29,168 nt of DNA from a virus: IMG/VR virus record IMGVR_UViG_3300025127_000182, positions 1 through 29,168 of that record. One strand, 5' to 3'. Below are positions 240-12,433 of the stretch, one piece after another; position 1 is the first letter of the stretch; each line of letters opens with the position of its first letter. The position numbers were made by a program, and so were the translations under genes. The notes under the pieces are model-generated. The model was not told the DNA's origin. It did not search any database and saw only the letters and a program-made list of their open reading frames with translations.

Positions 240-270
240 CACAAGGCCACAGTAACCCCGATTGTTGCTG

Positions 271-761: not shown

Positions 762-956
762 ATGAAGAATCCGTTTCTGACAACCGGAATGCTGGCCGTA
801 CGTCGCGCCGCCGAAGCACTCGCACCCAGCGAATGCCCAGACTGCGATGGAACAGGCACAGTGACCGTCATTCGCACCTTCGCAGATCCCATCTGCGGAG
901 GTTACGAAGAAGAGTTCGAAGAACTCTGTAGTGCCTGTGAGGGCTATGGCGACTAA
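762..956 (+). CDS. Small DnaJ-type zinc-finger-like protein
   Basis: 64 aa. C25-P-D-C28-D-G-T-G-T and C56-S-A-C59-E-G-Y-G are two CxxCxGxG-like knuckles separated by about 27 residues, with an extra C45. This is the pattern of the DnaJ zinc-binding domain, which normally has four such repeats; here there are two, enough for one zinc site. It starts immediately after the stop of the 387 gene, with AAAGGAGG at 746-752 inside the 3' end of that gene, so the two are co-transcribed and probably translationally coupled. A strong terminator follows 4 nt after the stop. It may be a zinc chaperone or adaptor; function unknown. Confidence 0.65.
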   Translation: MKNPFLTTGMLAVRRAAEALAPSECPDCDGTGTVTVIRTFADPICGGYEEEFEELCSACEGYGD

Positions 957-960
957 CAGC

Positions 961-992
961 GAAGGGAGCGGCAGAGCCGCTCCCTTCTTTTT
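961..992 (+). terminator. Strong rho-independent terminator
   Basis: A 12-bp perfect stem (961-972 with 976-987), loop AGA, then a run of T. It ends the 387-956 transcription unit. Confidence 0.92.
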
Positions 993-1005
993 GTATCCCA
1001 GTCTT

Positions 1006-1057
1006 AAAGAAAAAACCTGCGTACGCAGGTTTTTTCTTTCGGGCGCAAGCACGCAGG
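1006..1057 (+). repeat. Palindromic repeat, copy 1
   Basis: A perfect 34-nt palindrome at 1006-1039 centred on GTAC, with core AAACCTGCGTACGCAGGTTT, then CGGGCGCAAGC and ACGCAGG. It is nearly identical to the copy at 1563-1613 and adjoins a third copy starting at 1058. It lies just downstream of a terminator. In RNA it would form a very stable hairpin. Confidence 0.85.
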
Positions 1058-1117
1058 TCAAAATAAAACCTGCATTCGCAGGTTTTATTTTGATACGCAA
1101 GCGCAGATTCCGCTTGC
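1058..1117 (+). repeat. Palindromic repeat, copy 2 (tandem to copy 1), with an extra hairpin
   Basis: Perfect 16-bp arms at 1058-1073 and 1078-1093 around ATTC contain the AAACCTGC/GCAGGTTT core of copies 1 and 3, followed by ACGCAAGC at 1095-1102. GCAAGCG (1097-1103) can also pair with CGCTTGC (1111-1117). It sits immediately before the predicted promoter element of the next unit. Confidence 0.8.
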
Positions 1118-1124
1118 AATGTCC

Positions 1125-1139
1125 GTGATTGTATGCAAC
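1125..1139 (+). promoter_or_regulatory. Shared upstream element GTGATNNTATGCAAC (unit 2)
   Basis: The element GTGAT-TG-TATGCAAC recurs as GTGAT-AT-TATGCAAC at 1678-1692. The two lie 29 and 32 nt before start codons that have the same TAGGAGGTT ribosome-binding site. The spacing fits a -10 promoter region, but no good -35 box is visible. TTAGTGAT follows at 1142-1149, a word also found at 1675 and 3501. Confidence 0.5.
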
Positions 1140-1168
1140 GCTTAGTGATCATGACATAGGAGGTTTTC

Positions 1169-1330
1169 ATGAGCAGAGACGACATCATTCAAAACGTGAA
1201 GGACGCCAAGTTCCAGATCGAATTCATGGCACTCATGCTGCTGTCGAGCAGGCATGACAAGGCAGCGGAAGCGTACGAGTGTGCGGTCACCAAGCTGGCC
1301 GAGATCGTAGGGGAGGACAGTGATGTATGA
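1169..1330 (+). CDS. Small helical protein of unknown function
   Basis: 53 aa, MSRDDIIQNVKDAKFQIEFM at the N-terminus, predicted mostly helical with a hydrophobic middle (FMALMLLSS) and an acidic C-terminus. I do not recognise a family. The start is well supported by AGGAGGTT 5 nt upstream. The next gene begins 8 nt before this stop, so the two should be coupled. It belongs to the second unit of the island, between the repeat arrays at 1006-1117 and 1563-1659. Confidence 0.6.
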   Translation: MSRDDIIQNVKDAKFQIEFMALMLLSSRHDKAAEAYECAVTKLAEIVGEDSDV

Positions 1331-1514
1331 ATCTTTCAACAGCTTCTATCGCGAGTGCAACCGAATCATCGGGAACAAAATCGGTGTGGGTCTTGACGAT
1401 CTGCCCGACGCGCGGTGGCGTGACTATTTCGACGAAGGCATGTCCCCGCATGACGCGATTGAATGCGCGTATGAAGATTACTGGTCCGACCATTTCCCCC
1501 CTGGCATCATCTAA
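1323..1514 (+). CDS. Small acidic phage protein of unknown function
   Basis: 63 aa from ATG at 1323; GTG at 1320 is an alternative start. GGGGAGG at 1309-1315 supports either. The sequence is acidic and aromatic-rich, with LDDLPDARWRDYFDEGMSP followed by AIECAYEDYW, a type of short helical protein common in phages of diverse proteobacteria but without assigned function. It overlaps the preceding gene by 8 nt and ends 6 nt before a strong terminator, so it closes the second unit. Confidence 0.65.
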   Translation: MYESFNSFYRECNRIIGNKIGVGLDDLPDARWRDYFDEGMSPHDAIECAYEDYWSDHFPPGII

Positions 1515-1520
1515 CTCGAG

Positions 1521-1549
1521 CAGCGGGCTGAATCAGCCCGCTGTTTTTT
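1521..1549 (+). terminator. Strong rho-independent terminator
   Basis: CAGCGGGCT (1521-1529) pairs with 1535-1543 around GAATC, followed by six T. It ends the 1169-1514 unit. Confidence 0.92.
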
Positions 1550-1562
1550 CCGTGCTCGATCT

Positions 1563-1613
1563 AAAAGAAAACCTGCGTACGCAGGTTTTCTTTTCCGGGC
1601 GCAAGCCCGCAGG
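1563..1613 (+). repeat. Palindromic repeat, copy 3
   Basis: A perfect 32-nt palindrome at 1563-1594 with the same GCGTACGC centre as copy 1, followed by CCGGGCGCAAGC (GCGCAAGC at 1599-1606) and CCGCAGG. Like copy 1, it sits just after a terminator. Confidence 0.85.
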
Positions 1614-1638
1614 CCCGGCCCGCCGATATATAAAAACG

Positions 1639-1659
1639 CGCAGGGCCGCAGGCCGCAGG
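1639..1659 (+). repeat. Clustered CGCAGG words
   Basis: CGCAGG occurs at 1639, 1647 and 1654, continuing the copy at 1608. It lies between copy 3 of the palindromic repeat and the promoter element of the GP88-like gene. Confidence 0.6.
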
Positions 1660-1677
1660 TCTTCCCTTGATTTATTA

Positions 1678-1692
1678 GTGATATTATGCAAC
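1678..1692 (+). promoter_or_regulatory. Shared upstream element with extended -10 (unit 3)
   Basis: GTGATATTATGCAAC matches the element at 1125 in 13 of 15 positions. It contains TGATATTAT, which reads as an extended -10 (TG-N-TATTAT), so a -35 box may not be needed. The start codon is 32 nt downstream. Confidence 0.55.
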
Positions 1693-1724
1693 AGTTATTG
1701 ACCATCACCGTAGGAGGTTAGACG

Positions 1725-2354
1725 ATGGATTCCCAACAATTGAAACAAGCAAGGCAGGACAAAAAACTTTTGTCCAATGTCTCGAAAATGCCGGGCTATA
1801 GCATCAGCCGCAGCGCGTGGCTGTGCGACGTGGGCAGCAGGCTTGCCGAGATCAAAGGCAGCACATGTGAAAACTGCTACGCCCGGAAGGGCATGTATCA
1901 CATGCCCAACGTCAAGGCAAAAATGATAGAGCGCGAGGCGTTTTTTAACGCACCCGATTTTGTGCCGCGCATGGTTAACGTGCTGAACATTGTTCGCAGC
2001 GAATGGTTCCGCTGGTTCGATTCGGGCGACGTGGGCAGCGTGGGCATGGCGTTGAACATCATCGACGTATGCAGGCAGACACCAAACAAACGCCATTGGA
2101 TACCATCGCGCGAGTTCAAAATCTGGACGCGCGCGCTAGAGATTGACCGCCTGCCCGACAATGCTGTCTTGCGTATGTCCGCCCACATGGTGGACGGACC
2201 ACGGCCCAAGGCATGGCCAACCACATCGACAGTTCATTCAGGCAAAAAAACGCTGGGCCGCACATGCCCGGCACCTGAACAACAAGGCAAATGCGGTGAT
2301 TGCCGCGCCTGCTGGTCTATTGACGTTCCGAATGTTTCCTATCACATCCACTAA
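1725..2354 (+). CDS. GP88-like cysteine-rich phage protein
   Basis: 209 aa. Features visible: C34, C48-x2-C51 (STCENCYA), an aromatic F-R-W-F-D-S-G-D segment near residue 98, HWIPSRE near 124, and a C-terminal cluster C181-x8-C190-x2-C193-x2-C196. The C-x2-C-Y-A, R-W-x-x-S-G-D and W-x-P-(S/T)-R-E motifs in this order recall the mycobacteriophage Gene product 88 family, which is widespread in phages and functionally uncharacterised. The cysteines suggest a metal or iron-sulfur site. AGGAGGTT supports the start. It is the sole gene of its unit, with its own promoter element and terminator. Family assignment is from memory of motifs. Confidence 0.7.
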   Translation: MDSQQLKQARQDKKLLSNVSKMPGYSISRSAWLCDVGSRLAEIKGSTCENCYARKGMYHMPNVKAKMIEREAFFNAPDFVPRMVNVLNIVRSEWFRWFDSGDVGSVGMALNIIDVCRQTPNKRHWIPSREFKIWTRALEIDRLPDNAVLRMSAHMVDGPRPKAWPTTSTVHSGKKTLGRTCPAPEQQGKCGDCRACWSIDVPNVSYHIH

Positions 2355-2361
2355 CCTCCGG

Positions 2362-2392
2362 AACCTGGCCCGCGAATCGCGGGCCAGGTTTT
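2362..2392 (+). terminator. Rho-independent terminator after the GP88-like gene
   Basis: A 14-bp GC-rich inverted repeat (2362-2375 with 2377-2390, effective loop GAATC), then TTTT. It separates the rightward island from the convergent leftward nuclease gene whose stop is at 2394. It may act partly in the other direction, although no T-run is seen there. Confidence 0.85.
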
Positions 2393-2393
2393 C

Positions 2394-2816
2394 CTATGCC
2401 CGCCAGGCTGCTTCCGCCGCAGCCCGCAGGCCCGCAGGCGCAGCCCGCAGGGGGCCTTTCCATACATACGCAGGCGCAGGGTCGCAGGCGCACAGGTCAA
2501 TGATCCGCGATTCATGGATCACGGGTGCTTTTCCACCGTCAAATAAAAATACATCGCCGGTCGAGGGTGCATGGAGCAAGAAAAAACTTGCACCGCCACA
2601 ACGTGTATGCGCCAAATGCCAAGCAATTTGCGAGGTTGATAAGGATACGCGATTATTTTTAATTATTTTCAATTCGCACCAAACAGGCACCCCATCCATG
2701 CACAGATATACGTCTGGCATCCCTTGTCCAGCACGGTTTTCAATCCGCTGGAAGTGGGTCTTTTTCGGTAAATTCTGTTTCAAGGAGTTCCACAGGCTGC
2801 GTTCCGTCGTGGGCAT
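2394..2816 (-). CDS. VRR-NUC/PD-(D/E)XK nuclease next to terS
   Basis: 140 aa. The nuclease core is clear: E26, G-M-P-D35, E48-L-K50 (VPVWCELKI) and the downstream helix Q63 (SLSTSQIAWHL). This G-x-P-D ... E-x-K ... Q layout is that of VRR-NUC and Holliday-junction-resolvase-like phage nucleases. A role in processing branched DNA before packaging is plausible, because the gene follows terS and would precede terL. It overlaps the 3' end of terS by 77 nt. The last 30 residues (Ala-rich, ending EAAWRA) are encoded by DNA with six CGCAGG words and look like a low-complexity extension. The ATG at 2816 has only a weak ribosome-binding site. Confidence 0.8.
   Translation of the reverse strand: MPTTERSLWNSLKQNLPKKTHFQRIENRAGQGMPDVYLCMDGVPVWCELKIIKNNRVSLSTSQIAWHLAHTRCGGASFFLLHAPSTGDVFLFDGGKAPVIHESRIIDLCACDPAPAYVWKGPLRAAPAGLRAAAEAAWRA
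2425..2488 (+). repeat. CGCAGG cluster inside the nuclease 3' end
   Basis: CGCAGG starts at 2425, 2433, 2446, 2469, 2475 and 2483, all on the + strand. It continues the series at 1024, 1052, 1077, 1580, 1608, 1639, 1647 and 1654. It lies in coding DNA for the Ala-rich tail of the nuclease. Confidence 0.75.
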
Positions 2817-3285
2817 CTTCGATCCGTTTCATGTTGTCGAATGCGTGGGGATATTCCTGCCGAATGGCGGCGAGTCGGGCGACGATCTCTTCACGCGACA
2901 GCGAGTCGAGTTGGTGAACGTGCGTCGATTCTCGCCGGTCAATCGTCAAACCGCCAAGGGCAGACCTGATCTTCTCGGCATTGATGGCGGCAGAAAATTG
3001 TCCGGCTTCCTCTGCGGCGATGGACAAGTCTTCGAACCGCTTCAACTGGTTCAGCAGCGTGACACCGTATCGACGTTCCCGCGCCTGTCTCAATTCTTTG
3101 ATCAGTTTTGGCACTTCCGGAAATGTCTTACCGTCAAGCAACTTGGACGCCTGCACGTTGGCACTGCCTTCCGCATAGCCAGCCTTTCTCGCGCACTCGG
3201 TGTTGCTGTATCTGCCCTCGACATAATACTTGGCAAATTCTCGTTGCCGATTCGTCAGCCCAGCGGGCCTACCTACTTTTCCCAT
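2740..3285 (-). CDS. terS: Terminase small subunit
   Basis: 181 aa. The N-terminus is GRPAGLTNRQREFAKYYVEG, then SNTECARKAGYAEGSANVQA and SKLL. This is the helix-turn-helix opening of the Terminase_2-type small terminases that recognise packaging DNA. A central region of charged helices (oligomerisation) and an acidic C-terminal tail (ELLETEFTEKD) follow, typical for contact with the large subunit. Length is usual for the family. No good Shine-Dalgarno sequence lies before the ATG at 3285, but the peptide start is typical. It is the first gene of the leftward side, facing the 3286-3554 control region. Confidence 0.88.
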   Translation of the reverse strand: MGKVGRPAGLTNRQREFAKYYVEGRYSNTECARKAGYAEGSANVQASKLLDGKTFPEVPKLIKELRQARERRYGVTLLNQLKRFEDLSIAAEEAGQFSAAINAEKIRSALGGLTIDRRESTHVHQLDSLSREEIVARLAAIRQEYPHAFDNMKRIEDAHDGTQPVELLETEFTEKDPLPAD

Positions 3286-3310
3286 AGCGATATTTTTTGC
3301 CCTTTACAGT

Positions 3311-3448
3311 TTGAAAAAACAAAAACCAACTGCCTACCCTTCTCATAGCTGTAACAGTGTAACAGAAGTGTAACGGCTGTGATTGTTGCTGGATATGGGT
3401 TTGTTACGCTTGTTACGCTTGTTACGCCATTTTGAAAAAAACAAAAAC
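3311..3448. other. Candidate replication origin or master control region
   Basis: The gap between divergent terS and the early operon is organised symmetrically. TTGAAAAAACAAAAAC (3311-3326) and a near copy (3432-3448) flank three GTAAC words (3351, 3359, 3370) and three facing GTTAC words (3403, 3412, 3421). The last three lie in tandem 9-bp units. A-rich segments plus short repeats are what phage and plasmid origins often contain, but this also fits multiple operator sites. No DnaA box is seen. Confidence 0.45.
3402..3428 (+). repeat. Three tandem 9-bp TGTTACGCT repeats
   Basis: TGTTACGCT at 3402-3410 and 3411-3419, and TGTTACGCC at 3420-3428. The inverse word GTAAC occurs three times at 3351-3374. 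The arrangement is iteron-like. Confidence 0.85.
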
Positions 3449-3493
3449 AAAATTGCAAACCCGGAGAAAATCGTTTTAGTAGCGTGTTTGTTG

Positions 3494-3521
3494 TTGACTA
3501 TTAGTGATAGTTAGTTACTAT
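3494..3521 (+). promoter_or_regulatory. Early promoter with overlapping operator half-sites
   Basis: TTGACT (3494-3499), 16-bp spacer, TACTAT (3516-3521). Three 5-bp half-sites in alternating orientation, ACTAT (3497), ATAGT (3507) and ACTAT (3517), sit 10 bp apart across the spacer and -10 box. That fits a repressor binding successive turns on one DNA face. TGTTGTTGACT at 3489-3499 is identical at 10704-10714 in the other predicted early promoter. Confidence 0.7.
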
Positions 3522-3554
3522 GAATTATCAACCGATGGCACCAAGGAGAAAGAT

Positions 3555-3854
3555 ATGCCGAGATATTACGCAAAGCAAGAGGTGCTTGATGACGGTGGCA
3601 AACACGTCGCTGACCATCTGCTGCCTATCTGTGATTCGATCCGCGTTCTTGAAAAGAAATTGTTTCGGGATCGTGAAGTCTTCCCATTGACAGAAGGTCG
3701 TCGGTACGCCGGTCGGATTCGTGTCTATCGTGTGGTTCGTAATAATCTCGTGCCGCATGGCATTTACATTGTTGACAACGGCAAGCTGAAGAAGATGAAG
3801 CGTATGATGTTCGTCGAGTTCATGGATGGATTTATGGGGGCAGACAATGGGTAA
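3555..3854 (+). CDS. First gene of the early operon, unknown function
   Basis: 99 aa from ATG at 3555, chosen over an in-frame GTG at 3504 because AAGGAG lies 7-12 nt upstream and because the predicted transcription start is near 3528. The sequence is basic in the middle (EGRRYAGRIRVYRVVRNN) with alternating hydrophobic strands, suggesting a small beta-rich fold that may bind nucleic acid, and ends in an aromatic, Met-rich tail. I do not recognise a family. Being first after the promoter, it would be among the earliest proteins made. It overlaps the next gene by 8 nt. Confidence 0.65.
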   Translation: MPRYYAKQEVLDDGGKHVADHLLPICDSIRVLEKKLFRDREVFPLTEGRRYAGRIRVYRVVRNNLVPHGIYIVDNGKLKKMKRMMFVEFMDGFMGADNG

Positions 3855-4056
3855 GGTCAAAAGCTGGCTGATGGGCATGGAAGAAGATGCCATGTGGATG
3901 AGCCGTGATTCGTGGGCCGCCGAGCATGGCGCGATGAATCTGCAAGTTTACGATGATGTTCAGGGCCGGATGGCAGACAGCATCGAGTATCGCAAGATCG
4001 AGGCGGCGGAGCGTGAAGCCGACGCCTACATCGACAGACTGAATGGAGACGTGTGA
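3847..4056 (+). CDS. Small early protein of unknown function
   Basis: 69 aa from ATG at 3847, overlapping the previous stop. Rich in Met and Trp at the N-terminus (SWLMGMEEDAMWMSRDSW), then a predicted helix with many Glu and Ala (EYRKIEAAEREADAYIDRL). Likely a small helical protein. No recognised family. The stop TGA at 4054-4056 overlaps the next ATG in a TGATG junction, indicating translational coupling. Confidence 0.65.
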   Translation: MGKVKSWLMGMEEDAMWMSRDSWAAEHGAMNLQVYDDVQGRMADSIEYRKIEAAEREADAYIDRLNGDV

Positions 4057-4232
4057 TGAAAACCTATGAGGTAACAATCCGCGCAACGGTGACGAAAACC
4101 TACGAGGTTCGGGCCGTGAATGAAGAGTCAGCGGAAGATTTGGCAAACGATATGTTTGTTGTTTCCTACGAGGGCGGCGTCTCTGAAAGATACGCACAAG
4201 ACACACTGGACGTAGAGGAGGTCGTGCAATGA
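4056..4232 (+). CDS. Small DpnD/PcfM-like beta-alpha protein
   Basis: 58 aa. MKTYEVTIRATVTKTYEVRA followed by NEESAEDLA shows two beta strands and then the common v-x-A-x-(N/D)-E-x-x-A-E-x-x-A helix entry. That is seen in short phage and plasmid proteins of the DpnD/PcfM type, whose role is unknown. The start overlaps the upstream stop (TGATG) and the stop overlaps the ATG of the next gene (ATGA), so it is sandwiched in a coupled chain. The gene at 5423 has the same architecture and may be a distant paralogue. Confidence 0.65.
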   Translation: MKTYEVTIRATVTKTYEVRAVNEESAEDLANDMFVVSYEGGVSERYAQDTLDVEEVVQ

Positions 4233-4717
4233 ACAAGGTAGAGTTTTCGGCGGACACTGGTGCGCCAAGGATCATTGTCCAGTCGAACCCGACATGGGAT
4301 CAGTGGGTAGAAATCTGCGAGGCCGTGTGGGTCACGGCCTTGGAGGGTGGGTGCAACTACTGGATGGACGATTTAAAATACGACCATGATCGTCCGTGGG
4401 TTCCGTGGAAGCACAGTCAAATGAAAAGCAACATGGTTCGAGAGTGGCGCAAAGATATTCCCAAGCTGGATATCAAGAACGGTGCCCATTGCATCCGCAA
4501 CTTCCCGATCAAGGTCTACCACAATGCAGATGACTGGGAGTCCGGCGAGTCCGAGATCACCGAGGGCATGTCATTCGAGGTGGTCACGGTTGGCATCAAC
4601 AATCTGCCGCCCGAGGTCAAGCTGTCGATCATGAACCCATACACCTGTGACATCGACGCCGAGATTGCGGACCAGATCGTGCAGACAGGTTTGTTCGGGA
4701 GTGCGGTCTATGGTTAA
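4229..4717 (+). CDS. Conserved-looking phage protein of unknown function
   Basis: 162 aa, coupled to the previous gene by an ATGA overlap, with GAGGAG upstream. Contains WDQWVEICEAVWVTALEGGC followed by NYWMDD near residues 23-48, a Trp/aromatic-rich helix and turn, and a second half of beta strands (FPIKVYHNADD, MSFEVVTVGINNL). Phages often encode proteins with this GG-x-x-YW element, but I know no function for them. It overlaps the next start by 8 nt. Confidence 0.6.
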   Translation: MNKVEFSADTGAPRIIVQSNPTWDQWVEICEAVWVTALEGGCNYWMDDLKYDHDRPWVPWKHSQMKSNMVREWRKDIPKLDIKNGAHCIRNFPIKVYHNADDWESGESEITEGMSFEVVTVGINNLPPEVKLSIMNPYTCDIDAEIADQIVQTGLFGSAVYG

Positions 4718-4955
4718 GCGGAAGAAGAAAATTCACATCAACCAGCATGTCATTCGTGCCAACAAGAAGAATGACGAATCGAACCCGCCCATCACCGTGA
4801 AGTGTGGGCGTGAGAACCACTACACATATGCGGCAGAGATCGAGGGTTTGTCGCGCGTTGTGTACTCGCCAGACAAGCCGCTGTCATGCGGGGCAAAAGT
4901 CTGGATCGAAACCACTGCGCCGGTGTGGATTCATACTGGCGAGATTATCGACTAA
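4710..4955 (+). CDS. Small basic protein of unknown function
   Basis: 81 aa from ATG at 4710 (CGGGAG upstream), overlapping the previous stop by 8 nt. The N-terminus is strongly basic (MVKRKKKIHINQHVIRANKK), the remainder beta-rich with two cysteines (VKCGRENHYTYAAEIEG and LSCGAKVWIE). It could be a small nucleic-acid-binding fold. No family recognised. A short gap with CGGAGG leads to the next gene. Confidence 0.6.
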   Translation: MVKRKKKIHINQHVIRANKKNDESNPPITVKCGRENHYTYAAEIEGLSRVVYSPDKPLSCGAKVWIETTAPVWIHTGEIID

Positions 4956-4968
4956 TCGGAGGATTGAA

Positions 4969-5238
4969 ATGACGAGGATCATCGAGGCCGAGTACCATGT
5001 GCAGGCCACACATTTCTGGGAGGTCAAGCACATCGAGGGCTGGCCCACAGACGAGGAGGGTGCGCCGCGTGATATCAAATCGGCACACAACTTCTGGATT
5101 AAGTGGGGGCTGTTGCATGTGAAGTGGCACAAGGACGGTCATGTGTTCGAGTACGAGCCGACCGCCGAGGAGAACGGTGACGGCATGGACTACAAGTGGC
5201 CGGACGCCGAGTACATCGATGGCGAGAGGATGGACTGA
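4969..5238 (+). CDS. Small acidic aromatic protein of unknown function
   Basis: 89 aa from ATG at 4969, supported by CGGAGG 6 nt upstream. An upstream in-frame extension exists but would run over the preceding gene. Many Trp, His and Asp residues: ATHFWEVKHIEGWPTDEEG, FWIKWGLLHVKWHKDG and a Glu/Asp-rich C-terminus. Predicted beta-sheet. No family recognised. The stop overlaps the next start in TGATG. Confidence 0.6.
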   Translation: MTRIIEAEYHVQATHFWEVKHIEGWPTDEEGAPRDIKSAHNFWIKWGLLHVKWHKDGHVFEYEPTAEENGDGMDYKWPDAEYIDGERMD

Positions 5239-5426
5239 TGGGTTTTGATTTTGAACAGACAGAGTATGTCTGCATAGAGTGCGGTGGCAGTGATTGGCAT
5301 GCCAATCGATTTTACTGCAACAAATCCAAAGCGTGGTTGGATGATGAGATCGCACAATGGTGTTCCGACTGCGAACAAGAGGTCGGTCTGATTGAGGCAG
5401 ACGAATGGGAGGGTGTTCCGGCATGA
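5238..5426 (+). CDS. Small zinc-binding protein
   Basis: 62 aa. C12-x2-C15 (VCIECGG) and C42-x2-C45 (WCSDCEQ), with a further C27, form a likely treble-clef or zinc-ribbon site. The sequence between is aromatic and acidic. It starts in a TGATG overlap with the upstream gene and ends in an ATGA overlap with the next, so it is part of the coupled early chain. Zinc ribbons of this size in early phage operons are often host-takeover or adaptor proteins, but no role can be assigned here. Confidence 0.7.
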   Translation: MGFDFEQTEYVCIECGGSDWHANRFYCNKSKAWLDDEIAQWCSDCEQEVGLIEADEWEGVPA

Positions 5427-5599
5427 GGTATGGAGTGATGATCGTGGCGACCAACACGGTGTTGATCGACGCGGACAACGAGGAAGAGGCAGAGCGCAAG
5501 GCGCTTGAGTTGGGTGTGTGGGAAACACTGGACGGTGCTGATTATGAAGTGACCGATGTGATCCCTGATCCGTTCAACGAGGCGGCGGACAATGGTTGA
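5423..5599 (+). CDS. Small DpnD/PcfM-like protein
   Basis: 58 aa from ATG at 5423 (GGGAGGG upstream). Strand-helix layout MRYGVMIVATNTVLIDADNE then EEAERKALELG, the A-x-N-E-E-E-A-E-x-x-A motif shared with the gene at 4056. Followed by a strand with Asp and Tyr (ADYEVTDVIPDPF). Function unknown. It overlaps the next start by 8 nt. Confidence 0.6.
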   Translation: MRYGVMIVATNTVLIDADNEEEAERKALELGVWETLDGADYEVTDVIPDPFNEAADNG

Positions 5600-5765
5600 C
5601 GAGCGCCTGATGCATGTAGCCGACGAGGTTCGTCGGCTCATGCGAATCTTCGGTGATCTTTGTTTCGACGAGGCACCGCAGGAGGAAATCGATGCGGCTT
5701 GGCGGCGGTACATGTACGTCAAGCGGCTACACAGGAAGGGAGTGGAGTATGTCCCAAGATTCTGA
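5592..5765 (+). CDS. Small basic helical protein of unknown function
   Basis: 57 aa from ATG at 5592. MVDERLMHVADEVRRLMRIF and DEIDAAWRRYMYVKRLHRKG-like stretches predict two amphipathic helices, the second basic. Its last 17 nt overlap the start of the HNH gene, whose ribosome-binding site (AAGGGA) lies inside it, so the two are probably translationally coupled. It might be a partner or regulator of the HNH protein; that is only a positional inference. Confidence 0.55.
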   Translation: MVDERLMHVADEVRRLMRIFGDLCFDEAPQEEIDAAWRRYMYVKRLHRKGVEYVPRF

Positions 5766-7104
5766 AGGGCCAAGACCACCCAAAAAACTTAGTCTGTCTG
5801 GCAGCAGGCTGACACTCGGCGGTATCGAGGCCGACCAACTAAGGGCAACATCCGACGGTGCTGGCAGACGCACTGTGCAGATCGAGGTGCGCCGCAAGCG
5901 CGCCCCTGCTGCGCCGCATCGACCTATCGTCCCGACTCCGCTGGACAGTGAGCAGCCGCCGGTTGGCCTGTCGAATGAAGAGCGTGTGCAGAGGATACGC
6001 GCACTTCAAGAAGGCATGAAGAAACCACTCCAGACTGAACAAGTAGAATGGCCGGTGGATACGCCGCCGAAGAAGAAGAAAGACCCTGTTCCGTGGACCG
6101 TGGACTCTCATCAAAAGCATCCGGACACACGGATGTGGCATGACTGTGTCGGGTGGGACAACCCAAAGTCGGAGAGTCGGTTCCGTATGGGCGAAGACAT
6201 TGGGTACAAGGAGGTCGGAGTTAACCAGCAGATTCCCGCCGAAGATTGCAAGACCGTTGAAGAAGTAATGGACTTGATCCCGAATCTGCGCCGGGTTGGT
6301 CACAGCAGTCGGCTGAAAGCAGACCTAAACAGGTTATACGAACGTGCGCGAGACGACACATGGAGCAAGCATGTGCTCAACTCGAGTTTCGTTTTCACGC
6401 GCCTTGATGGGGGTGAAGGCAAGTGGATAAGGCACATGCGCCCTCTGGGTGCGAAGGTGTTAGTCCGGTTTCTGGTACACGTTGGCCCGGAGTTTTACAT
6501 CGATGGCGACATCGACCTGCGAGAGTTGCGTAAGTATGCATCGAGCGCGGACATCATCGAGGAGCCGCCTGCCCGCAAGGAGCCAGCCGCCAGCAACGAC
6601 AACGACAACGAGTTGACGCCGGTAAAGATTACCGAGAGTCGTCAGCAGGTGGTGACGACTCGGCCCTACCCTATGAGTCAGCTACGCAAACGGATGCTTG
6701 CGAAAAACCCGGTGTGTCCTGTGACCGGCATAGACAGACACCAGTTTTTGCGCGTGTCACACATTAGGGCGGATAGTGCCTGTGAGTTCGACTGGCAAAA
6801 GACAGACGACGCAAACATACTAATGCTGTCGCTGGCAGCGAACGAACTGTTCGATGGCCTGTGTCCACCGGGGTTCAATGGCTGGAAGGGCCGTGCTGGG
6901 TGGATCACGTTTGCCGATGACGGCGAGTTAATGCGGAGCATTTACATGAAAGGTGCCGAGTTAGACCGATTCGGAATCTCGCACCATGTGTCTATTGCCC
7001 ATCTGTTGAAGGGTAATACTGGAGAGCGGCGCCGTGGATACTTGAAGTGGCACCGCGAGAACATGTTCTTGGACAACATCCGAAAGGAGGAGACCGATGG
7101 ATAG
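5749..7104 (+). CDS. HNH nuclease-domain protein with an IF-2-like N-terminus
   Basis: 451 aa from ATG at 5749. C-terminal residues 305-441 fit the HNH_2 family: C323-P-V-T-G-I, S-H338-I, D-A-N356-I-L-M-L, E-L-F-D369, then ITFADDGELMRS and the closing W-H434-R-x-x-x-F. The metal/catalytic layout looks complete. Residues 13-90 (KLSLSGSRLTLGG, RRTVQIEVRRKR at 40-51, GLSNEERVQRIRALQ at 73-87) match in order the conserved elements that open alphaproteobacterial translation initiation factor IF-2. Residues 100-300 are unrecognised, with a basic linker PPKKKK and an acidic DNDNDNE segment. It sits in the early operon. The nuclease assignment is fairly sure; the IF-2 likeness comes from memory of the family. 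Confidence 0.75.
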   Translation: MSQDSEGPRPPKKLSLSGSRLTLGGIEADQLRATSDGAGRRTVQIEVRRKRAPAAPHRPIVPTPLDSEQPPVGLSNEERVQRIRALQEGMKKPLQTEQVEWPVDTPPKKKKDPVPWTVDSHQKHPDTRMWHDCVGWDNPKSESRFRMGEDIGYKEVGVNQQIPAEDCKTVEEVMDLIPNLRRVGHSSRLKADLNRLYERARDDTWSKHVLNSSFVFTRLDGGEGKWIRHMRPLGAKVLVRFLVHVGPEFYIDGDIDLRELRKYASSADIIEEPPARKEPAASNDNDNELTPVKITESRQQVVTTRPYPMSQLRKRMLAKNPVCPVTGIDRHQFLRVSHIRADSACEFDWQKTDDANILMLSLAANELFDGLCPPGFNGWKGRAGWITFADDGELMRSIYMKGAELDRFGISHHVSIAHLLKGNTGERRRGYLKWHRENMFLDNIRKEETDG

Positions 7105-7273
7105 TTACGAAGAGGAGTCCAAGAAGATCGAGGACGACTACCAAGGCGTCGAGTGTGACTGGTGTGGACATATTTGCTGGGAGCACACGTCATTTTTCGG
7201 GGACATTCGTTGCGACGAGTGTGCCTATGAAGACGAAACCTACAGAAGGGAGATTCTAGGTGAGTGTAACTGA
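7097..7273 (+). CDS. Small acidic zinc-binding protein
   Basis: 58 aa. C20-x2-C23-G-H-x-C27 and C39-x2-C42 with nearby His residues predict one zinc site. Strongly acidic overall. The start overlaps the end of the HNH gene, with AAAGGAGG inside that gene. The next gene begins at a GTG 14 nt before its stop. No recognised family; possibly an adaptor or inhibitor. Confidence 0.65.
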   Translation: MDSYEEESKKIEDDYQGVECDWCGHICWEHTSFFGDIRCDECAYEDETYRREILGECN

Positions 7274-7511
7274 CAAACGTGTGACGCGCGATATGCGTCA
7301 AACTCTGCTGAATATGCACAACGATCTGAAGACCATCAAGAACACGGTCGAGGAGTGCAACGACATGTGGCTGTCCGATGTGCGAAAGCTGGAGACGATC
7401 ATCCACTACCTGCATTCCGAGTTCGAGTTCAGACCGAGAGATAAATACGACTCGTACTACACGGACTGGGTGTTCGCCGAGGATGTGAAAGAGGAGGACG
7501 ATGATGACTGA
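7260..7511 (+). CDS. Small helical protein, GTG start
   Basis: 83 aa from GTG at 7260, with AAGGGA 9 nt upstream. Residues 8-55 predict a long amphipathic helix or coiled coil (MRQTLLNMHNDLKTIKNTVE), followed by an aromatic acidic tail ending EEDDDD. No family recognised. The C-terminal Asp run is encoded at the ribosome-binding site and start region of the next gene. Confidence 0.6.
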   Translation: MSVTDKRVTRDMRQTLLNMHNDLKTIKNTVEECNDMWLSDVRKLETIIHYLHSEFEFRPRDKYDSYYTDWVFAEDVKEEDDDD

Positions 7512-7749
7512 TTGGATTTCTGTCGAAGACGCGATGCCGGAAGAGGGCCAGAAGGTCTGGTACTACTTCCAGCCTGTGGGCAGGCATCGTGGGACTTTCG
7601 ATGGGTATTGGGTGGACGAGGACGGTAAGGAGTGGAGGGGGATGCATATGTTCTCCTGCGACTACGGATTCCTGACCGGCGACGTAACCCACTGGATGCC
7701 CGACGAGGGGCAGGATAAACCTGAGAAGCCGAGGGAGACGATGCAGTGA
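7504..7749 (+). CDS. DUF551-family protein
   Basis: 81 aa from the second of two adjacent ATGs; the spacing to AGGAGG at 7492-7497 favours 7504 over 7501. The start W-I-S-V-E-D-A-M-P-E-E-G-Q-x-V-W and the end V-T-H-W-M-P are the hallmarks of DUF551, a short family common in phages and prophages with no known biochemical role. Length is usual. The stop overlaps the next GTG start. Confidence 0.82.
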   Translation: MTDWISVEDAMPEEGQKVWYYFQPVGRHRGTFDGYWVDEDGKEWRGMHMFSCDYGFLTGDVTHWMPDEGQDKPEKPRETMQ

Positions 7750-7946
7750 AGGTCGTCTGGGTTCTGTTGTTAGTCACAGGGTTTGGTGTCGATTCGGATT
7801 CGTTCGACACCAAATCCCTAGGCGGCTACGATACTATTGCTGAGTGTCACTTCGCATCGACAAAAATATTCTGGGAGCGTATGCCTATCAACCAAGAGGC
7901 GGTGTGTATACGAATTGAGTACGAGGAGTATGCCGATGACGATTGA
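7746..7946 (+). CDS. Small probable exported or membrane protein (copy A)
   Basis: 66 aa from GTG at 7746, overlapping the upstream stop. Residues 3-13 (VVWVLLLVTGF) form a hydrophobic segment like a short signal or membrane anchor, followed by an acidic Cys-containing domain: YDTIAEC at 28-34 and a second Cys near residue 53. The gene at 8249 has the same plan (hydrophobic N-terminus, Y-(E/D)-T-x-x-E-C, distal Cys). A disulfide in the periplasm would make sense. No known family. Confidence 0.55.
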   Translation: MKVVWVLLLVTGFGVDSDSFDTKSLGGYDTIAECHFASTKIFWERMPINQEAVCIRIEYEEYADDD

Positions 7947-8247
7947 AAAAGGTGACGGCACGATGCAGCAGCGTCTGGACATGGGCCTGTGCCCGAACTG
8001 CCAGACAGCCTTGAACCCTGGACCGGTGACCCTGTGCCAGTGTTGTGGATTGGAGATGTCAATGAACAAAACACATTTGATGCCGGAGGCATCACCTACT
8101 AGAAGCATGGAGTGGAGTTCGGCAGCAATGGTGATCGAAACGTGTGTCGATGAGATGCTGGACAAGATTGCCAAGAATCCAGATGATTATCTACCCGATG
8201 CCGATATCGAAATCATAGAGGCGTGGCAACGGATTCTGCGAGGGTGA
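7936..8247 (+). CDS. Zinc-ribbon protein with helical C-terminus
   Basis: 103 aa from ATG at 7936, preferred over ATG 7930 because GAGGAG (7923-7928) is then correctly spaced. C19-P-N-C22 and C34-x-C36-C37-G form a zinc ribbon. Residues 60-103 predict helices (MVIETCVDEMLDKIAKNPDD, IIEAWQRILRG). Overlaps the previous gene by 11 nt. Function unknown. Confidence 0.65.
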   Translation: MTIEKGDGTMQQRLDMGLCPNCQTALNPGPVTLCQCCGLEMSMNKTHLMPEASPTRSMEWSSAAMVIETCVDEMLDKIAKNPDDYLPDADIEIIEAWQRILRG

Positions 8248-8248
8248 A

Positions 8249-8464
8249 ATGGTTGAAGCATTTATTGCGTCCGTAAGTTTTTGTGTGATGTTATCGACTC
8301 CGCCGGAGTGCGGCCACATTGAGGACGAGTGGGGGCCGTACGAGACGCAAGTGGAATGCGAAGCAAGAATTCGTCAGATGTTTGGGTTTTTGAGTATGAC
8401 GTTTCCTCCCGGCAGTGTGTACGGTAAGGGAAGTTGTTACAAGGTTGAAGGGGAGAAGCTGTGA
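8249..8464 (+). CDS. Small probable exported or membrane protein (copy B)
   Basis: 71 aa. A hydrophobic N-terminus (VEAFIASVSFCVMLS) is followed by Cys-rich sequence PPECGHIEDEWGPYETQVEC and a distal GSCYKV. It resembles the gene at 7746 in size, N-terminal hydrophobicity and the Y-E-T-x-x-E-C element, so the two are probably paralogues separated by one zinc-ribbon gene. It may be secreted to the periplasm. Its stop overlaps the next GTG start. Confidence 0.55.
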   Translation: MVEAFIASVSFCVMLSTPPECGHIEDEWGPYETQVECEARIRQMFGFLSMTFPPGSVYGKGSCYKVEGEKL

Positions 8465-8685
8465 AACAACGAGACCCGAACTGGCAGGGCATTCGTCGCC
8501 ACCATGTGGTGATGGACAAGCGCAGCAGAATGCTGGAGAGCATCCATCGAAACGAAATGGACGATGCCTGTGTTCGGTGTGGCACACCTCTTGCTTCTAT
8601 TGTAGAAGTTCACGGCCACGGTCAATGTTCTGTCTGTGGTAGCGTGATTGATGATTGCTGCCAAGGAGAGTGCGCCAATGACTAA
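8461..8685 (+). CDS. Small zinc-binding protein, GTG start
   Basis: 74 aa from GTG at 8461 (AAGGGGAG upstream). C37-x2-C40 (CVRCGT) and C56-x2-C59 (CSVCGS) form a zinc ribbon, followed by C66, C67 and C71. The N-terminal half is basic and His/Arg-rich, compatible with nucleic-acid contact. Overlaps the next gene's start by 8 nt. No family recognised. Confidence 0.65.
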   Translation: MKQRDPNWQGIRRHHVVMDKRSRMLESIHRNEMDDACVRCGTPLASIVEVHGHGQCSVCGSVIDDCCQGECAND

Positions 8686-8929
8686 GGACAACATTATATA
8701 TTTTTCGAAAGAACAACCCAAGATCGACAAGATCGACGCCTCTGCGGTCGAGGTCTTGTGCGACATTGCAGGCAGACATCTGGACGACGTTGTCATCCTC
8801 GGGTCTGACAAGGAGACTGGTGCTATCAAGATGATGACGACACAGGAGGATGTTGCCGACATCCTGTTCTATCTGGAGGTTGCCAAGAAGGCGATCCTAG
8901 ATCAGGGCGTCCATGATGGTGAAGTTTAA
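8678..8929 (+). CDS. Small early protein of unknown function
   Basis: 83 aa from ATG at 8678, chosen over the upstream ATG 8648 because AAGGAG (8663-8668) is well placed. Mixed alpha/beta: DNIIYFSKEQPKIDKID, LDDVVILGSDKETGAIKMM, then helix DVADILFYLEVAKKAIL. Its position directly before the helicase gene, overlapping it by 17 nt, suggests a link with replication, but no family is recognised. Confidence 0.6.
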   Translation: MTKDNIIYFSKEQPKIDKIDASAVEVLCDIAGRHLDDVVILGSDKETGAIKMMTTQEDVADILFYLEVAKKAILDQGVHDGEV

Positions 8930-10364
8930 CTACCGTACGGAGCCTTATGCACACCAGCGTAAGGCTCTGGAACGCTCGTACGACAAGCGCAACTACGCTT
9001 ACTTTATGGAGATGGGGTGTGGCAAGTCGAAGGTTCTTATTGACAACATCGTCTGGCTCTACGAGCAGGGCCGCATTGACACGGCGGTTATTGTTGCGCC
9101 GAAAGGTGTTTACCGCAACTGGGAAACGGCGGAGATTCCCACCCACTTCCCGACCGACGTTCCGCACGAGATTTATGTATGGAATCCGAGTCCCAACAAG
9201 TCGCAAGCCGAGCGCCTCAAGTCTGGCATTCAAGAGCGTGGCGTCCTCCGCATCCTTCTGGCAAACGTGGAAGGGTTCGCAACAAAAAAGCTGCCCGCAT
9301 TTGTGGGTGCGTTCACACAGGGCAGCAATTTCCTACTTGCTGTTGATGAGTCCACTACAATCAAGAACCCCAAGGCCAAGCGCACTAAGACGCTGGTCGT
9401 CTTCGGTAAAAAGGCTGCATACAAACGCATCCTCACCGGCTCCCCTGTCACAAAATCCCCGATGGACCTTTACGCCCAGTGTGGATTCATGGACAAGAAA
9501 CTTCTTGGATTCGATTCGTACTACTCGTTCCAAGGACGATACGCCGTCACCAAGACGCAACGCATGGGCGCGCATAGCTTCCTTCAGATCGTGGGCTATC
9601 GGAACCTTGAAGAACTATCGGAGAAACTTGACACGTTTTCCTATCGAGTAACCAAGGAAGAAGCACTAGACCTGCCCGACAAGGTGTATGTCACCCGAGA
9701 GGTGAGCGTCACCGACGAGCAGCGGCAGCACTACCTGACATTGAAGAAGCAAGCCATCGCCATGTTCGACAACGGCGACCTGGTCACGGCGCCGGCTGTG
9801 ATCACACAACTGCTGCGCTTGCAGCAGGTGCTGTGCGGCCACATCAGAACGGACGACGGAGAGTTGATCGAGATTCCATCGAAGCGTGTCGCTGCGTTGA
9901 TGGAAACCATCGACGAGATGACAGGCAAGGTTATCGTCTGGTCACGGTTCCGCTACGACATCAAGAAGATCGAGGCCGAGATCAAGATGGTTCATGGACC
10001 GGGGTCCGTGGTCACATATTTTGGGGACACGACAGATGAACAACGCCAGCAGGCGATCAAGGACTTTCAGTTCGGGGATGCTCGATTCTTCGTGGCGAAC
10101 CCACAGACCGCAGGCTTTGGCCTGACGCTGACGGCTGCAACAAACGTGATCTATTATGCTAACGACTTCGACTTGGCGACTCGGATGCAGTCCGAGGACC
10201 GGTGTCACCGGATCGGGCAGAGCAACCGAGTCACCTATGTTGACCTAATTACTCCGGCTTCGATTGATCAGCGGATTGTTCGTGCTCTTCGGGACAAGAT
10301 TGATCTGTCGGCGAAGGCGTTGGGCGAAGAAGCTCGGAAATGGTTGGAGCTTTCTCCCCGCTGA
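8913..10364 (+). CDS. SNF2-type superfamily 2 helicase/ATPase
   Basis: 483 aa. Motifs in order: Q-type P-Y-A-H-Q (11-15), Walker A MEMGCGKS (32-39), VVAPKG-like Ia (59-64), DESTTIKN (145-152) as the Walker B variant DE-S in place of DEAH, TGSP (175-178), then in lobe 2 KVIVWSRFR, NPQTAGFGLTLTAATNVIYY and DRCHRIGQ. This is the SNF2/Rad54-like core without extra domains, common in podophage replication modules, where it probably remodels DNA or protein-DNA complexes. The C-terminal coding end (10249-10364) is overlapped by an antisense nuclease gene. The start could be 8913 or 8916; the ribosome-binding site is weak. Confidence 0.9.
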   Translation: MMVKFNYRTEPYAHQRKALERSYDKRNYAYFMEMGCGKSKVLIDNIVWLYEQGRIDTAVIVAPKGVYRNWETAEIPTHFPTDVPHEIYVWNPSPNKSQAERLKSGIQERGVLRILLANVEGFATKKLPAFVGAFTQGSNFLLAVDESTTIKNPKAKRTKTLVVFGKKAAYKRILTGSPVTKSPMDLYAQCGFMDKKLLGFDSYYSFQGRYAVTKTQRMGAHSFLQIVGYRNLEELSEKLDTFSYRVTKEEALDLPDKVYVTREVSVTDEQRQHYLTLKKQAIAMFDNGDLVTAPAVITQLLRLQQVLCGHIRTDDGELIEIPSKRVAALMETIDEMTGKVIVWSRFRYDIKKIEAEIKMVHGPGSVVTYFGDTTDEQRQQAIKDFQFGDARFFVANPQTAGFGLTLTAATNVIYYANDFDLATRMQSEDRCHRIGQSNRVTYVDLITPASIDQRIVRALRDKIDLSAKALGEEARKWLELSPR

Positions 10365-10701
10365 AGTGACGGTTCTGTGCATTTGTCTTGGACACTGGAT
10401 CGTTGGAGAGTTGATGTGTGTACAAGCCGACGGCACCAGTTTCGAGGTCAACATACAACAGACGCACACCGAGCTTGCGTTGAATGTCTGTCAGCTTGCG
10501 GGCGATTGATGTGCCGGATTTGCGAAAGGCATGGGTCTTCACATCAAACAGATGTGTCTTGCCGTTTGGCGAGATGGCTACGAGGTCCACTGGCCCTTGT
10601 GCCATCACTGGCTGGTAGACATAGCAGTCTTGAGACAGCAACCACTCCGCTGCAAGCAGTTCTGATCGCTGACCATCTCGATTTTTCTGGTGTGGTCGCA
10701 T
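10249..10701 (-). CDS. Antisense PD-(D/E)XK nuclease, Hjc-like
   Basis: 150 aa on the strand opposite to the replication operon. G10-Q-R-S-E14-L-L-A-A-E, G-P-V-D39-L-V and D53-V-K55-T are the E ... D ... (D/E)-x-K active site of the PD-(D/E)XK superfamily in Holliday-resolvase-like spacing; the usual E-x-K is D-V-K here. The C-terminus is a polar, Pro/Ser/Glu-rich tail. The last 116 nt are antisense to the helicase gene. ATG at 10701 is favoured over more upstream starts because it begins right before the nuclease core and leaves a 54-bp divergent gap to the ribbon-helix-helix gene. It may be independently regulated cargo. Confidence 0.72.
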   Translation of the reverse strand: MRPHQKNRDGQRSELLAAEWLLSQDCYVYQPVMAQGPVDLVAISPNGKTHLFDVKTHAFRKSGTSIARKLTDIQRKLGVRLLYVDLETGAVGLYTHQLSNDPVSKTNAQNRHFSGEKAPTISELLRPTPSPTDQSCPEEHEQSADQSKPE

Positions 10702-10708
10702 AATGTTG

Positions 10709-10736
10709 TTGACTTTCCTGTTGGGTAGATTACAGT
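10709..10736 (+). promoter_or_regulatory. Predicted sigma70 promoter for the RHH gene
   Basis: TTGACT (10709-10714), 16-bp spacer, TACAGT (10731-10736). It shares TGTTGTTGACT and the 16-bp spacer with the 3494 promoter. It could supply the downstream replication genes as well. Confidence 0.65.
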
Positions 10737-10748
10737 GAGTGACTGTAA
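10730..10748. promoter_or_regulatory. Palindromic operator over the -10 box
   Basis: A perfect inverted repeat TTACAGT-GAGTG-ACTGTAA, 7-bp arms and a 5-bp spacer, covers the -10 hexamer and predicted start point. Half-sites are 10 bp apart, as in the 3497-3521 sites. It lies between the divergent nuclease and ribbon-helix-helix genes and is the natural autoregulatory site of the latter. Confidence 0.65.
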
Positions 10749-10755
10749 CAGACAC

Positions 10756-10926
10756 ATGCCAAGGAGTAAACAGGTGGATTTGAATAGGTGGAGAACTGTC
10801 GCTGTCCCGATTGAGTTGTACAAAATTCTCAAGGACACGGCTGAACAAAATGACCGTAGTGTCAGCAAACAGGTGGCCTTCATCTTGAAAAGATTTTTTG
10901 AATCTGAAGGCGTGAAAATTGGTTGA
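10756..10926 (+). CDS. Ribbon-helix-helix (Arc/CopG-like) regulator
   Basis: 56 aa. A beta strand (RWRTVAVPIE), helix (LYKILKDTAEQND), R-S-V-S-K turn and second helix (QVAFILKRFFES) match the Arc/CopG fold, which binds palindromes as a dimer of dimers through the strand. The start is uncertain. ATG at 10756 would have a leader of only about 13 nt. GTG at 10774 is 7 nt after AAGGAG and would still keep the whole fold. It probably represses its own promoter through 10730-10748 and perhaps the divergent nuclease gene and the main early promoter. Confidence 0.75.
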   Translation: MPRSKQVDLNRWRTVAVPIELYKILKDTAEQNDRSVSKQVAFILKRFFESEGVKIG

Positions 10927-10957
10927 TCGTGGACCGTGGTTCATGTATCACCCTCCA

Positions 10958-10991
10958 GCGGCGGCAGGTTAACGGTCAGTCCTGCCGTCGC
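10958..10991 (+). promoter_or_regulatory. Stem-loop in the leader of the gene at 11034
   Basis: GCGGCGGCAGG (10958-10968) pairs with CCTGCCGTCGC (10981-10991), 11 bp with one G-U, loop 12 nt. No T-run follows, so it is not an ordinary terminator. It could be a processing or stability hairpin between the RHH gene and the replication genes. Confidence 0.5.
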
Positions 10992-11033
10992 ACGATAGCC
11001 GAAGGGCTTAAACTTTAACGAAAGGAGAAGACG

Positions 11034-11600
11034 ATGAGCGATGTGTTTTCGCTTTTTGACGAGGCGGTCGATGCCAACAAGTTCGACACCGTGGATGAGG
11101 GTAAAGGTTCCCGCCTTTCGACACTCATCCGCCACTCCCTTGAGATCGACGAGGAGATCTCGCAAGTCGAGAAGTACCTCAAGGATCTGAAATTCAAGAA
11201 ACGCAAAGTGAATGAAGAGGACATCCCCGCTCTGATGACAGAGATGGGTATGGAAAGTGTTACCGTGGACGGTAACAAGATTGCTCTTCGTCAATTCGTC
11301 CATGCCCGCATCCCGGATGACAGGCGTGACGATGCGTATGCGTGGCTCCGTTCCATCGGTGAAGGTGACATCATCAAGAATGATGTGACGTTGTCCTTCA
11401 GTGCAGGTCAAGACAACATGGCCGGTGCTGTCGTGGAGGACTTACGCCAGCAGTATGGACTGGACCCCGCACAGAAAACCCACATCCATCCGCAGACGCT
11501 GAAGGCGTGGGTTCGTAACCGGATTGAGTCGGGCAAGGATATCGACTTCGACCAGTTCGGTGTGTTTGTAGGAACTGAAGCTAAAATTACGAGGACGTAG
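11034..11600 (+). CDS. Conserved phage replication-module protein
   Basis: 188 aa, GAAAGGAG upstream. The N-terminal half is a charged coiled-coil-like helix (SLEIDEEISQVEKYLKDLKF) leading to DIPALMTEMGMESVTVDG, then ARIPDDRRDDAYAWLRSIG, DIIKNDVTLSF and a C-terminus HPQTLKAWVRNRIESGKDI. This series (E-x-x-P-A-L-M-x-E-x-G, A-x-x-W-L, I-K-N, H-P-x-T-L-K-A-x-V) is characteristic of a protein encoded beside SSB and primase in many podophages and myophages, without an established function. It is possibly a replication accessory protein. It is followed 4 nt later by the SSB-like gene. Confidence 0.65.
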   Translation: MSDVFSLFDEAVDANKFDTVDEGKGSRLSTLIRHSLEIDEEISQVEKYLKDLKFKKRKVNEEDIPALMTEMGMESVTVDGNKIALRQFVHARIPDDRRDDAYAWLRSIGEGDIIKNDVTLSFSAGQDNMAGAVVEDLRQQYGLDPAQKTHIHPQTLKAWVRNRIESGKDIDFDQFGVFVGTEAKITRT

Positions 11601-11604
11601 AACG

Positions 11605-12411
11605 ATGGCTGGAAATCAAGCTGTAGCGAAAAAGGCGGAGTCGCTACCCGCCAACCTTATGGACGATCTGTTCGCTGGAGCAGGTCAGGGTATGGAAAAT
11701 ATTACTGCCGAAGATATGCAGATTCCGTTCATGCGGATCCTGCAACCTCTCTCCCCGCAACTGATCAAGACGGACTCGAAGTTTATCAAGGGTGCGTCTG
11801 CTGGTGACATCTTCAACACTGTGACCGGGCAGTATTGGGAAGGCGACGAGGGCGTGACGATTATCCCGTGCGCCTACGAGATGAAGTTTCTGGAGTTCCA
11901 ACTGCGTGAGGCCGGTGGTGGCTTCCTTGGCGAGATCGATCCGAACAGTCCTGACATTCGTCAGGCGAATCGGGTGGGTGCCAATGAAATGCTGCCGTCG
12001 GGTAACGAGTTGGTCCGTGCTGCCCAGTTCTTGGTCGTGGCTATTGGCGAAGACGGTGCAACCCAGCAGATGATTCTCGATATGAAGAAGACCCAGATGA
12101 AGGTTGCCAAGCAGTGGAACACTCGCCGTGCGGGTATGAAGCTGATGCACCCAGAGAAGGGTCTGTTCACTCCGCCCATGTGGGCAACTGTGTGGAAGCT
12201 GAAGACCGTGCAGGAGAGCAACGACAAGGGTTCGTGGTTCAACTACTCGATCTCCCAGCTTGATATCAAGGATGTGCCGTCGGCAGTGGTGCAGGAGTGT
12301 AAGGGTCTGTACGAGCAGTTTCGGAAGGGCGAAATCAAAACGTCCGCTGGCACTGCCGAAGAGATGAACGCTGCTTCGTCGTCCCGGCAGGACGACGAAA
12401 TCCCATTCTAA
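11605..12411 (+). CDS. Single-stranded DNA-binding-like protein
   Basis: 268 aa. The C-terminus ends in D-D-E-I-P-F, almost the E. coli SSB tip D-D-D-I-P-F that recruits replication partners. The body includes QIPFMRILQPLSPQL, ITAEDMQ, a beta-rich core with VTGQYWEGDEGVTIIPC and a helical WNTRRAGMKL segment. It resembles the phage SSB-like proteins encoded between a coiled-coil protein and the primase in marine podophages. It would coat single-stranded DNA at the fork. It is not the classical OB-fold SSB by sequence, so the call rests on the tail, length and context. Confidence 0.7.
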   Translation: MAGNQAVAKKAESLPANLMDDLFAGAGQGMENITAEDMQIPFMRILQPLSPQLIKTDSKFIKGASAGDIFNTVTGQYWEGDEGVTIIPCAYEMKFLEFQLREAGGGFLGEIDPNSPDIRQANRVGANEMLPSGNELVRAAQFLVVAIGEDGATQQMILDMKKTQMKVAKQWNTRRAGMKLMHPEKGLFTPPMWATVWKLKTVQESNDKGSWFNYSISQLDIKDVPSAVVQECKGLYEQFRKGEIKTSAGTAEEMNAASSSRQDDEIPF

Positions 12412-12433
12412 CGGTACGCACAATACGGTGTTT

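Follow-up and report, generated by a model that had tools for sequence, protein, structure and literature searches.

A phage nuclease of the HNH type carries at its N terminus a short piece of bacterial IF-2 whose closest counterparts are encoded by the infB genes of SAR116 marine bacteria. The gene resides in a 29,168-nucleotide virus record (IMGVR_UViG_3300025127_000182), the whole of which is called the window below. That phages captured this infB segment, and have since had it replaced, is very nearly certain. The reading that best accommodates the analyses is that the tail acts as a counterfeit NusA-docking tag that would bring the nuclease to transcribing RNA polymerase, to which we assign a probability of about 0.5. 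As the preliminary description of this DNA had supposed, we found no phage protein with this arrangement described in the open-access literature. The parts of the gene are given in Table 1.

Table 1. Features of the window gene and its product (window coordinates)
Feature	Position	Strand	Description
Open reading frame	5749-7104	+	Open, 451 aa; IF-2 tail, middle domain, and HNH domain
Putative ribosome-binding site GGGAG	5738..5742	+	6 nt before ATG; consensus only
Captured infB block, IF2_assoc	5780..5921	+	Codons of residues 12-58, KKLSLSGSRLTLGG...RRTVQIEVRRKRAPAAPHR; PF08364, nucleotide identity, phylogeny
Second IF-2-like segment	5968..6027	+	Residues 74-93, LSNEERVQRIRALQEGMKKP; aligned with host LTAQERAARVRALQEGMKKP
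Middle domain	6091..6558	+	Residues ~115-270; helical in model; present in tail-less relatives
HNH (beta-beta-alpha-Me) nuclease domain	6685..7074	+	Residues ~313-442; predicted motif H338, N356, N365, D369

Judged by DNA polymerase, the closest cultured or deposited relatives of this 29-kb virus record are 023Pt_psg01, DSL-LC04, and the pelagiphages HTVC023P and HTVC027P (46-52% identity to the window). The whole nuclease protein has no match among PHROGs, NCBIfam, or PDB sequences, and neither the protein nor its tail was found among INPHARED phages. A full-length relative from another phage locus (L002) has the same start as the window ORF. Elsewhere in the window, a protein encoded at 12545-14080 (+) matches the AEP-TOTE primase domain (E 2e-17) and adjoins a UvrD-like helicase. 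Near-identical palindromes of the type AAAACCTGCGTACGCAGGTTTT occur three times (1007-1038, 1060-1091, and 1563-1594), each set between A and T runs; they resemble bidirectional terminators, and two of them have an extension in common.

The IF-2-like nature of the N-terminal segment, as first noticed by eye, is confirmed by profile searches and by direct comparison with host proteins. When residues 1-100 are used as the query, PF08364 (IF2_assoc) matches residues 19-51 with 26.6 bits (E 6.9e-6; curated cut-off, 24 bits), whereas the whole protein as query scores 23.5 bits, just under that cut-off. The tail matches SAR116 IF-2 with an E value as low as 4.5e-21, and its local score is 211, whereas none of 5000 shuffles exceeded 56. 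A chance or low-complexity resemblance was rejected on the basis of these three results. The elements K-L-S-L, L-T-L, VQ(I/V)EVRRKR, a Pro-rich linker, and LSNEERVQRIRALQEGMKKP (host LTAQERAARVRALQEGMKKP) appear in the order originally claimed, and the alignment with the host extends over KKLSLSGSRLTLGG, RRTVQ(V)EVRRKRAPAAPHR, and then LTAQERAARVRALQEGMKKP. Thus, residues 12-58 and 74-93 match SAR116 IF-2 in order, but N2, the G domain, and the other IF-2 domains are missing and a nuclease domain is fused in their place. Pfam recovers only IF2_assoc and HNH_2, with neither the G domain nor the C-terminal domains of IF-2. By its sequence, the window protein contains part of IF-2 and is not itself an IF-2.

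The source of the tail can be assigned more narrowly than to the Alphaproteobacteria, the origin suggested initially. Positions 5780-5921 are 86.6% identical over 142 bp to the infB gene of a SAR116 bacterium (L047). Considering the best four candidates per genome from 61 genomes of the family, this block is the sole host-like DNA in positions 1-18400 of the window, with 13 of the genomes matching there; by the same measure, only the infB block is host-like over 4.2 kb of phage contig L118. When 84,980 genomes were searched for the tail by itself, 54 loci came back, mostly from SAR116/Puniceispirillum or marine Alphaproteobacteria, and most of those read out contain full infB frames of ~850-870 aa. 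Nearly all matches of the complete phage protein in 136 genomes of the order are to the 5′ end of infB, the other being one relative of the HNH tail. The family genomes carry an IF2_assoc match in 54 of 61 cases, with one match in each of five SAR116 genomes. These data place the homology specifically with SAR116 IF-2, and we take the window to come from a virus of SAR116 marine bacteria. Viral contigs searched for other alphaproteobacterial IF-2 types (VRQSFSHGR[ST]K) yielded none.

The C terminus is a member of the HNH family that comprises modification-dependent restriction enzymes such as VcaM4I. It had been described as a complete HNH_2 domain, which is generous for this copy. The homologues in L007, L117, and L118 are clear members of PF13391 at 40 bits; the window copy scores only 13.1-15.5 bits against a Pfam cut-off of 21 and has N365 rather than His at the third motif position. 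Even so, the predicted catalytic residues H338, N356, N365, and D369 line up with those of the relatives, giving the catalytic H-N-(H/N/D) pattern together with a second metal ligand. Mapped by eye, they correspond to H224, N241, D250, and D254, the residues used by the HNH domain of VcaM4I (PMC7897488). AlphaFold models of modest confidence were obtained (pLDDT 54, which is poor, for the window and 63 for L117). Their C-terminal part is nonetheless placed by Foldseek on VcaM4I, at E 2.7e-4 with the window model and 1.0e-9 with that of L117, and with a weaker match on TagI (E 4.9e-3). Most of residues 151-270 in the middle domain are modeled at pLDDT ~70-86, and the tail is of low confidence in both models, with no clear hairpin. 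From its motif and fold, the window protein is predicted to be an active DNase, which we consider likely.

The layout of VcaM4I (an EVE-HNH modification-dependent restriction endonuclease; 6yex), in which a modular targeting part is joined to a C-terminal HNH domain with the same fold and motif positions (H, N, D/N, D), is shared by the window protein. In VcaM4I the target is recognized by the N-terminal domain, and the HNH domain becomes a non-specific toxic nuclease when released from that domain and its linker (PMC7897488). In contrast, the window protein is phage-encoded and has the host-derived IF-2 tail and a middle domain where VcaM4I has EVE: Pfam detects no EVE or other modified-base sensor family in it, and Foldseek with the modest models assigns no fold to the middle domain. 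HHPV4I, from an archaeal virus, is likewise a virus-encoded modular modification-dependent nuclease, but the available part of its description gives it SRA and winged-helix domains and reports no host-factor tail (PMC10101028). HNH domains are also exchanged among unrelated fronts. Those of L010-L013 are 80-86% identical to the window HNH domain behind a wholly different N-terminal part, and L007 joins a window-type middle domain to another HNH type. A SAR116-family genome (G041:C11:30437-30772, minus strand) encodes a protein related to the HNH part at 34% identity, in a frame of 261 aa.

A search for related phage proteins, as had been advised, revealed the tail at nine related loci from several samples. 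L002, L003 (with near-identical L004 and L005), L007 (identical to L009), L025, L029, L116, L117, and L118 are the tail-bearing relatives. A chimeric assembly is unlikely given this recurrence and given that the identical L007/L009 protein comes from two samples. At the nine loci, the gene opens with the block, its frame preserved, whereas the linkers and the second IF-2 segment are variable. Other relatives (L006, 1262-2284, and L014-L019) keep the middle and HNH domains and are missing the tail, and no IF-2 tail was found in the available DNA flanking L006.

The phage tail blocks are not a single clade: within the host infB tree they occupy four or five separate places at the least. The window and L002 group with L047/L033, L007 with L037, L025 (and L117) with L038-L042/L046, and L029 (with L116 and L118) closest to L049/L051; the L003 block is a long branch of unsure position. 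A single phage clade is rejected on DNA in one tree (p 5e-7) and in a second, smaller tree (p 3.6e-26), and in the latter also on protein (p 1.9e-7) and on third codon positions (p 5.3e-5). The starred branches of the smaller tree alone force two changes and its best tree five, and the other tree also forces five. Replacement of the tail block by host infB DNA has therefore occurred in separate phage lineages, which suggests that the virus employs the IF-2 piece as a counterfeit docking tag in the cell.

The clearest example is provided by L007, whose block is 98.6% identical over 140 bp to that of host L037, including all 33 of 33 four-fold sites. The middle domains of L003 and L007 are 93% identical in nucleotide sequence (88% at four-fold sites), yet their blocks are only 70% identical (42% at four-fold sites), indicating that the block was overwritten by host DNA. 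The swap was limited to ~140 bp, since the LSNEER segment just behind it in L007 is 97% identical to that of the window. This second segment (residues 74-93) appears to be an old capture that has not been recently replaced, because the L007 copy is 97% identical to the window and only 58-63% identical to hosts. In the pairs compared, identity between host blocks roughly equals that of the rest of infB (e.g., 84% and 84% for L037/L036), which makes host to phage the likelier direction and disfavors transfer from phage to host.

Once acquired, the block has retained its frame in the phage lines and evolves there under purifying selection. The window and L002 blocks differ by 3 nonsynonymous and 9 synonymous changes (pN/pS 0.13, Fisher p 4.5e-4), those of L116 and L118 by 5 and 13 (0.15, p 2.8e-5), and those of L025 and L117 by 5 and 17 (0.11, p 7.4e-8); the L029/L118 pair is too similar to inform on selection. 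We consider it probable that the tail is a docking element operating at the protein level.

A candidate for the docking partner emerges from a 2025 study of E. coli, in which IF2 Domain I suffices for pull-down of NusA, residue 88 cross-links to NusA in vivo, and strands 57-90 together with the N1 subdomain are modeled on NusA KH2/AR1 (PMC12297416). In that study, IF2 binding was lost once the NusA C terminus was cut, and Domain I was seen to sit on the nucleoid, anti-correlated with ribosomes (PMC12297416). PF08364 spans residues 56-94 of E. coli IF2 (the sequence used is identical to the PDB chain), and window residues 20-51 align to the 57-90 segment, which is thus present in the window protein, with K50 opposite K88. 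Both C-terminal repeats are present in SAR116 NusA, and nusA is within the infB operon in SAR116. Among 14 control genomes, TIGR01954 is above its cut-off in two and PF08364 in E. coli and Caulobacter; the agreement between the two profiles is only suggestive of a pairing, being phylogenetically confounded. By this comparison with E. coli, the odds that NusA is the tail's partner appear roughly even.

Several observations call for caution. The IF2 N terminus and NusA C terminus are poorly conserved between species, and the interaction may not be general (PMC12297416). The window protein gives no match to IF2_N, the family of the N1 subdomain (E. coli 1-50), and SAR116 IF-2 itself has no N1 at its N terminus. 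Because N1 takes part in E. coli, the strands alone may not suffice for NusA. In addition, the residue aligned with K50 is Asn in two phage lineages (L025, L117, L116, and L118) and Lys in the aligned host infB genes, a change by which the contact could be altered or lost. The low model confidence of the tail and the existence of tail-less relatives also count against the docking reading.

With these points in mind, we propose the following scheme. A phage HNH-type nuclease has acquired its N-terminal IF-2 piece from infB of SAR116 bacteria, and the captured block would correspond to the strand pair by which IF-2 contacts the C-terminal part of NusA. By copying this strand pair, the tail would attach to NusA on RNA polymerase, and in infected cells the nuclease would thereby be brought to the transcribed nucleoid of the host. 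There the enzyme might help to destroy host DNA or to take over the host, with the exclusion of competing phage DNA as a further possibility. A need for the tail to fit the NusA of the current host would explain why host alleles are picked up again and again.

It was originally suggested that the tail might steer the nuclease to the initiation complex. Steering as such is plausible. NusA is a likelier partner than the 30S complex, however: NusA on RNA polymerase, in E. coli, is the only partner with experimental support that we found for exactly this segment (PMC12297416). Nothing points specifically to a shutdown of translation. A tail directed at the 30S subunit or initiation complex, taking the enzyme to ribosomes or blocking translation, would be natural for a segment derived from a translation factor, and the IF2 N terminus has a role in ribosome binding. 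However, the captured block ends before N2 and the G domain, the nearest characterized HNH enzyme (VcaM4I) cuts DNA, and the location of Domain I is on the nucleoid rather than with ribosomes (PMC12297416). We therefore regard this explanation as unlikely. We are somewhat more doubtful that the tail is a competitor that displaces host IF-2 from NusA and so uncouples transcription from translation, with the HNH domain secondary. It would use the same NusA contact as the docking tag, and the K-to-N change that two phage lineages show at the contact residue could tune binding; yet a free short peptide would suffice for this purpose, and here the tail is fused to a nuclease domain whose motif residues are kept.

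A second, unrelated phage protein also bears an IF2_assoc tail. On a 47-kb phage contig (L087; IMGVR_UViG_3300014489_000002), positions 3450-5252 (-) encode a 600-aa protein with an N-terminal IF2_assoc tail (E 2.2e-10) as in the window protein, but of another alphaproteobacterial IF-2 type, followed by a middle region and then by leucine-rich repeats in place of an HNH domain. The gene stands among head genes but on the opposite strand, with the major head protein nearby, and a Methylobacterium currus plasmid protein without IF2_assoc shares 35% identity with its middle region. This independent case suggests that the IF2_assoc segment is a portable tag and not an accident of one gene. We tentatively entertain the broader possibility, which falls somewhat short of an even chance, that phages fit effectors with a portable IF-2-derived NusA-docking tag and update it by recombination with the infB gene of the host lineage they infect, the same device having evolved on two or more unrelated phage proteins.

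The presence of the tail on this unrelated protein also weighs against a neutral explanation, in which recombination with host infB keeps rewriting the block to no benefit. Recombination is clear and tail-less relatives exist, but phage copies differ under purifying selection, and the block stays in frame at the gene start in nine loci while the linkers and second segment vary. Neutral rewriting is thus improbable, and the idea that the tail is no more than a captured disordered segment is disfavored, given that selection and in-frame replacement by host alleles more than once.

Even less probable is a role in replication, with the tail bringing the nuclease to forks. IF-2 acts with PriA in Mu replication and restart. 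Restart is affected by IF2 isoforms, the full-length form having an N-terminal-specific role, but forms active in Mu replication in vitro are without this segment (PMC3334882). Finally, an attP site within the block, matching attB in infB and restoring IF-2 after insertion, would account for short host-identical DNA from the 5′ part of a host gene, but is very improbable because synonymous differences are many, a search of 17 virus records (contigs of 52-57 kb included) turned up no tyrosine integrase, infB is full-length with no phage inside in nearly all matched genomes (an apparent truncation in L053 being a frameshift in a normal operon), and a DNA-only role does not predict purifying selection.

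The counterfeit NusA-docking tag accordingly remains our preferred reading, and it bears on a part of IF-2 that has almost no assigned function; neither the IF2_assoc region nor PF08364 is named in the open-access literature searched. The window protein adds a host-factor tail to the modular HNH nucleases, and in that literature we found no such tail described, nor one that is renewed from the host and used as a targeting part. The theft, selection, and renewal of the segment by phages constitute strong natural evidence for a specific binding surface outside the parent factor, and the newly reported IF2-NusA contact becomes testable in another bacterial class. These genes also offer a clear case in which a short, sharply bounded stretch of a host gene, ~140 bp long, has repeatedly been written over part of a phage protein. 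Because the tail names the donor SAR116 lineage, it provides a computational host marker for uncultivated phages. If the portable tag proves true, it would be a moving molecular passport matched to the host lineage infected.
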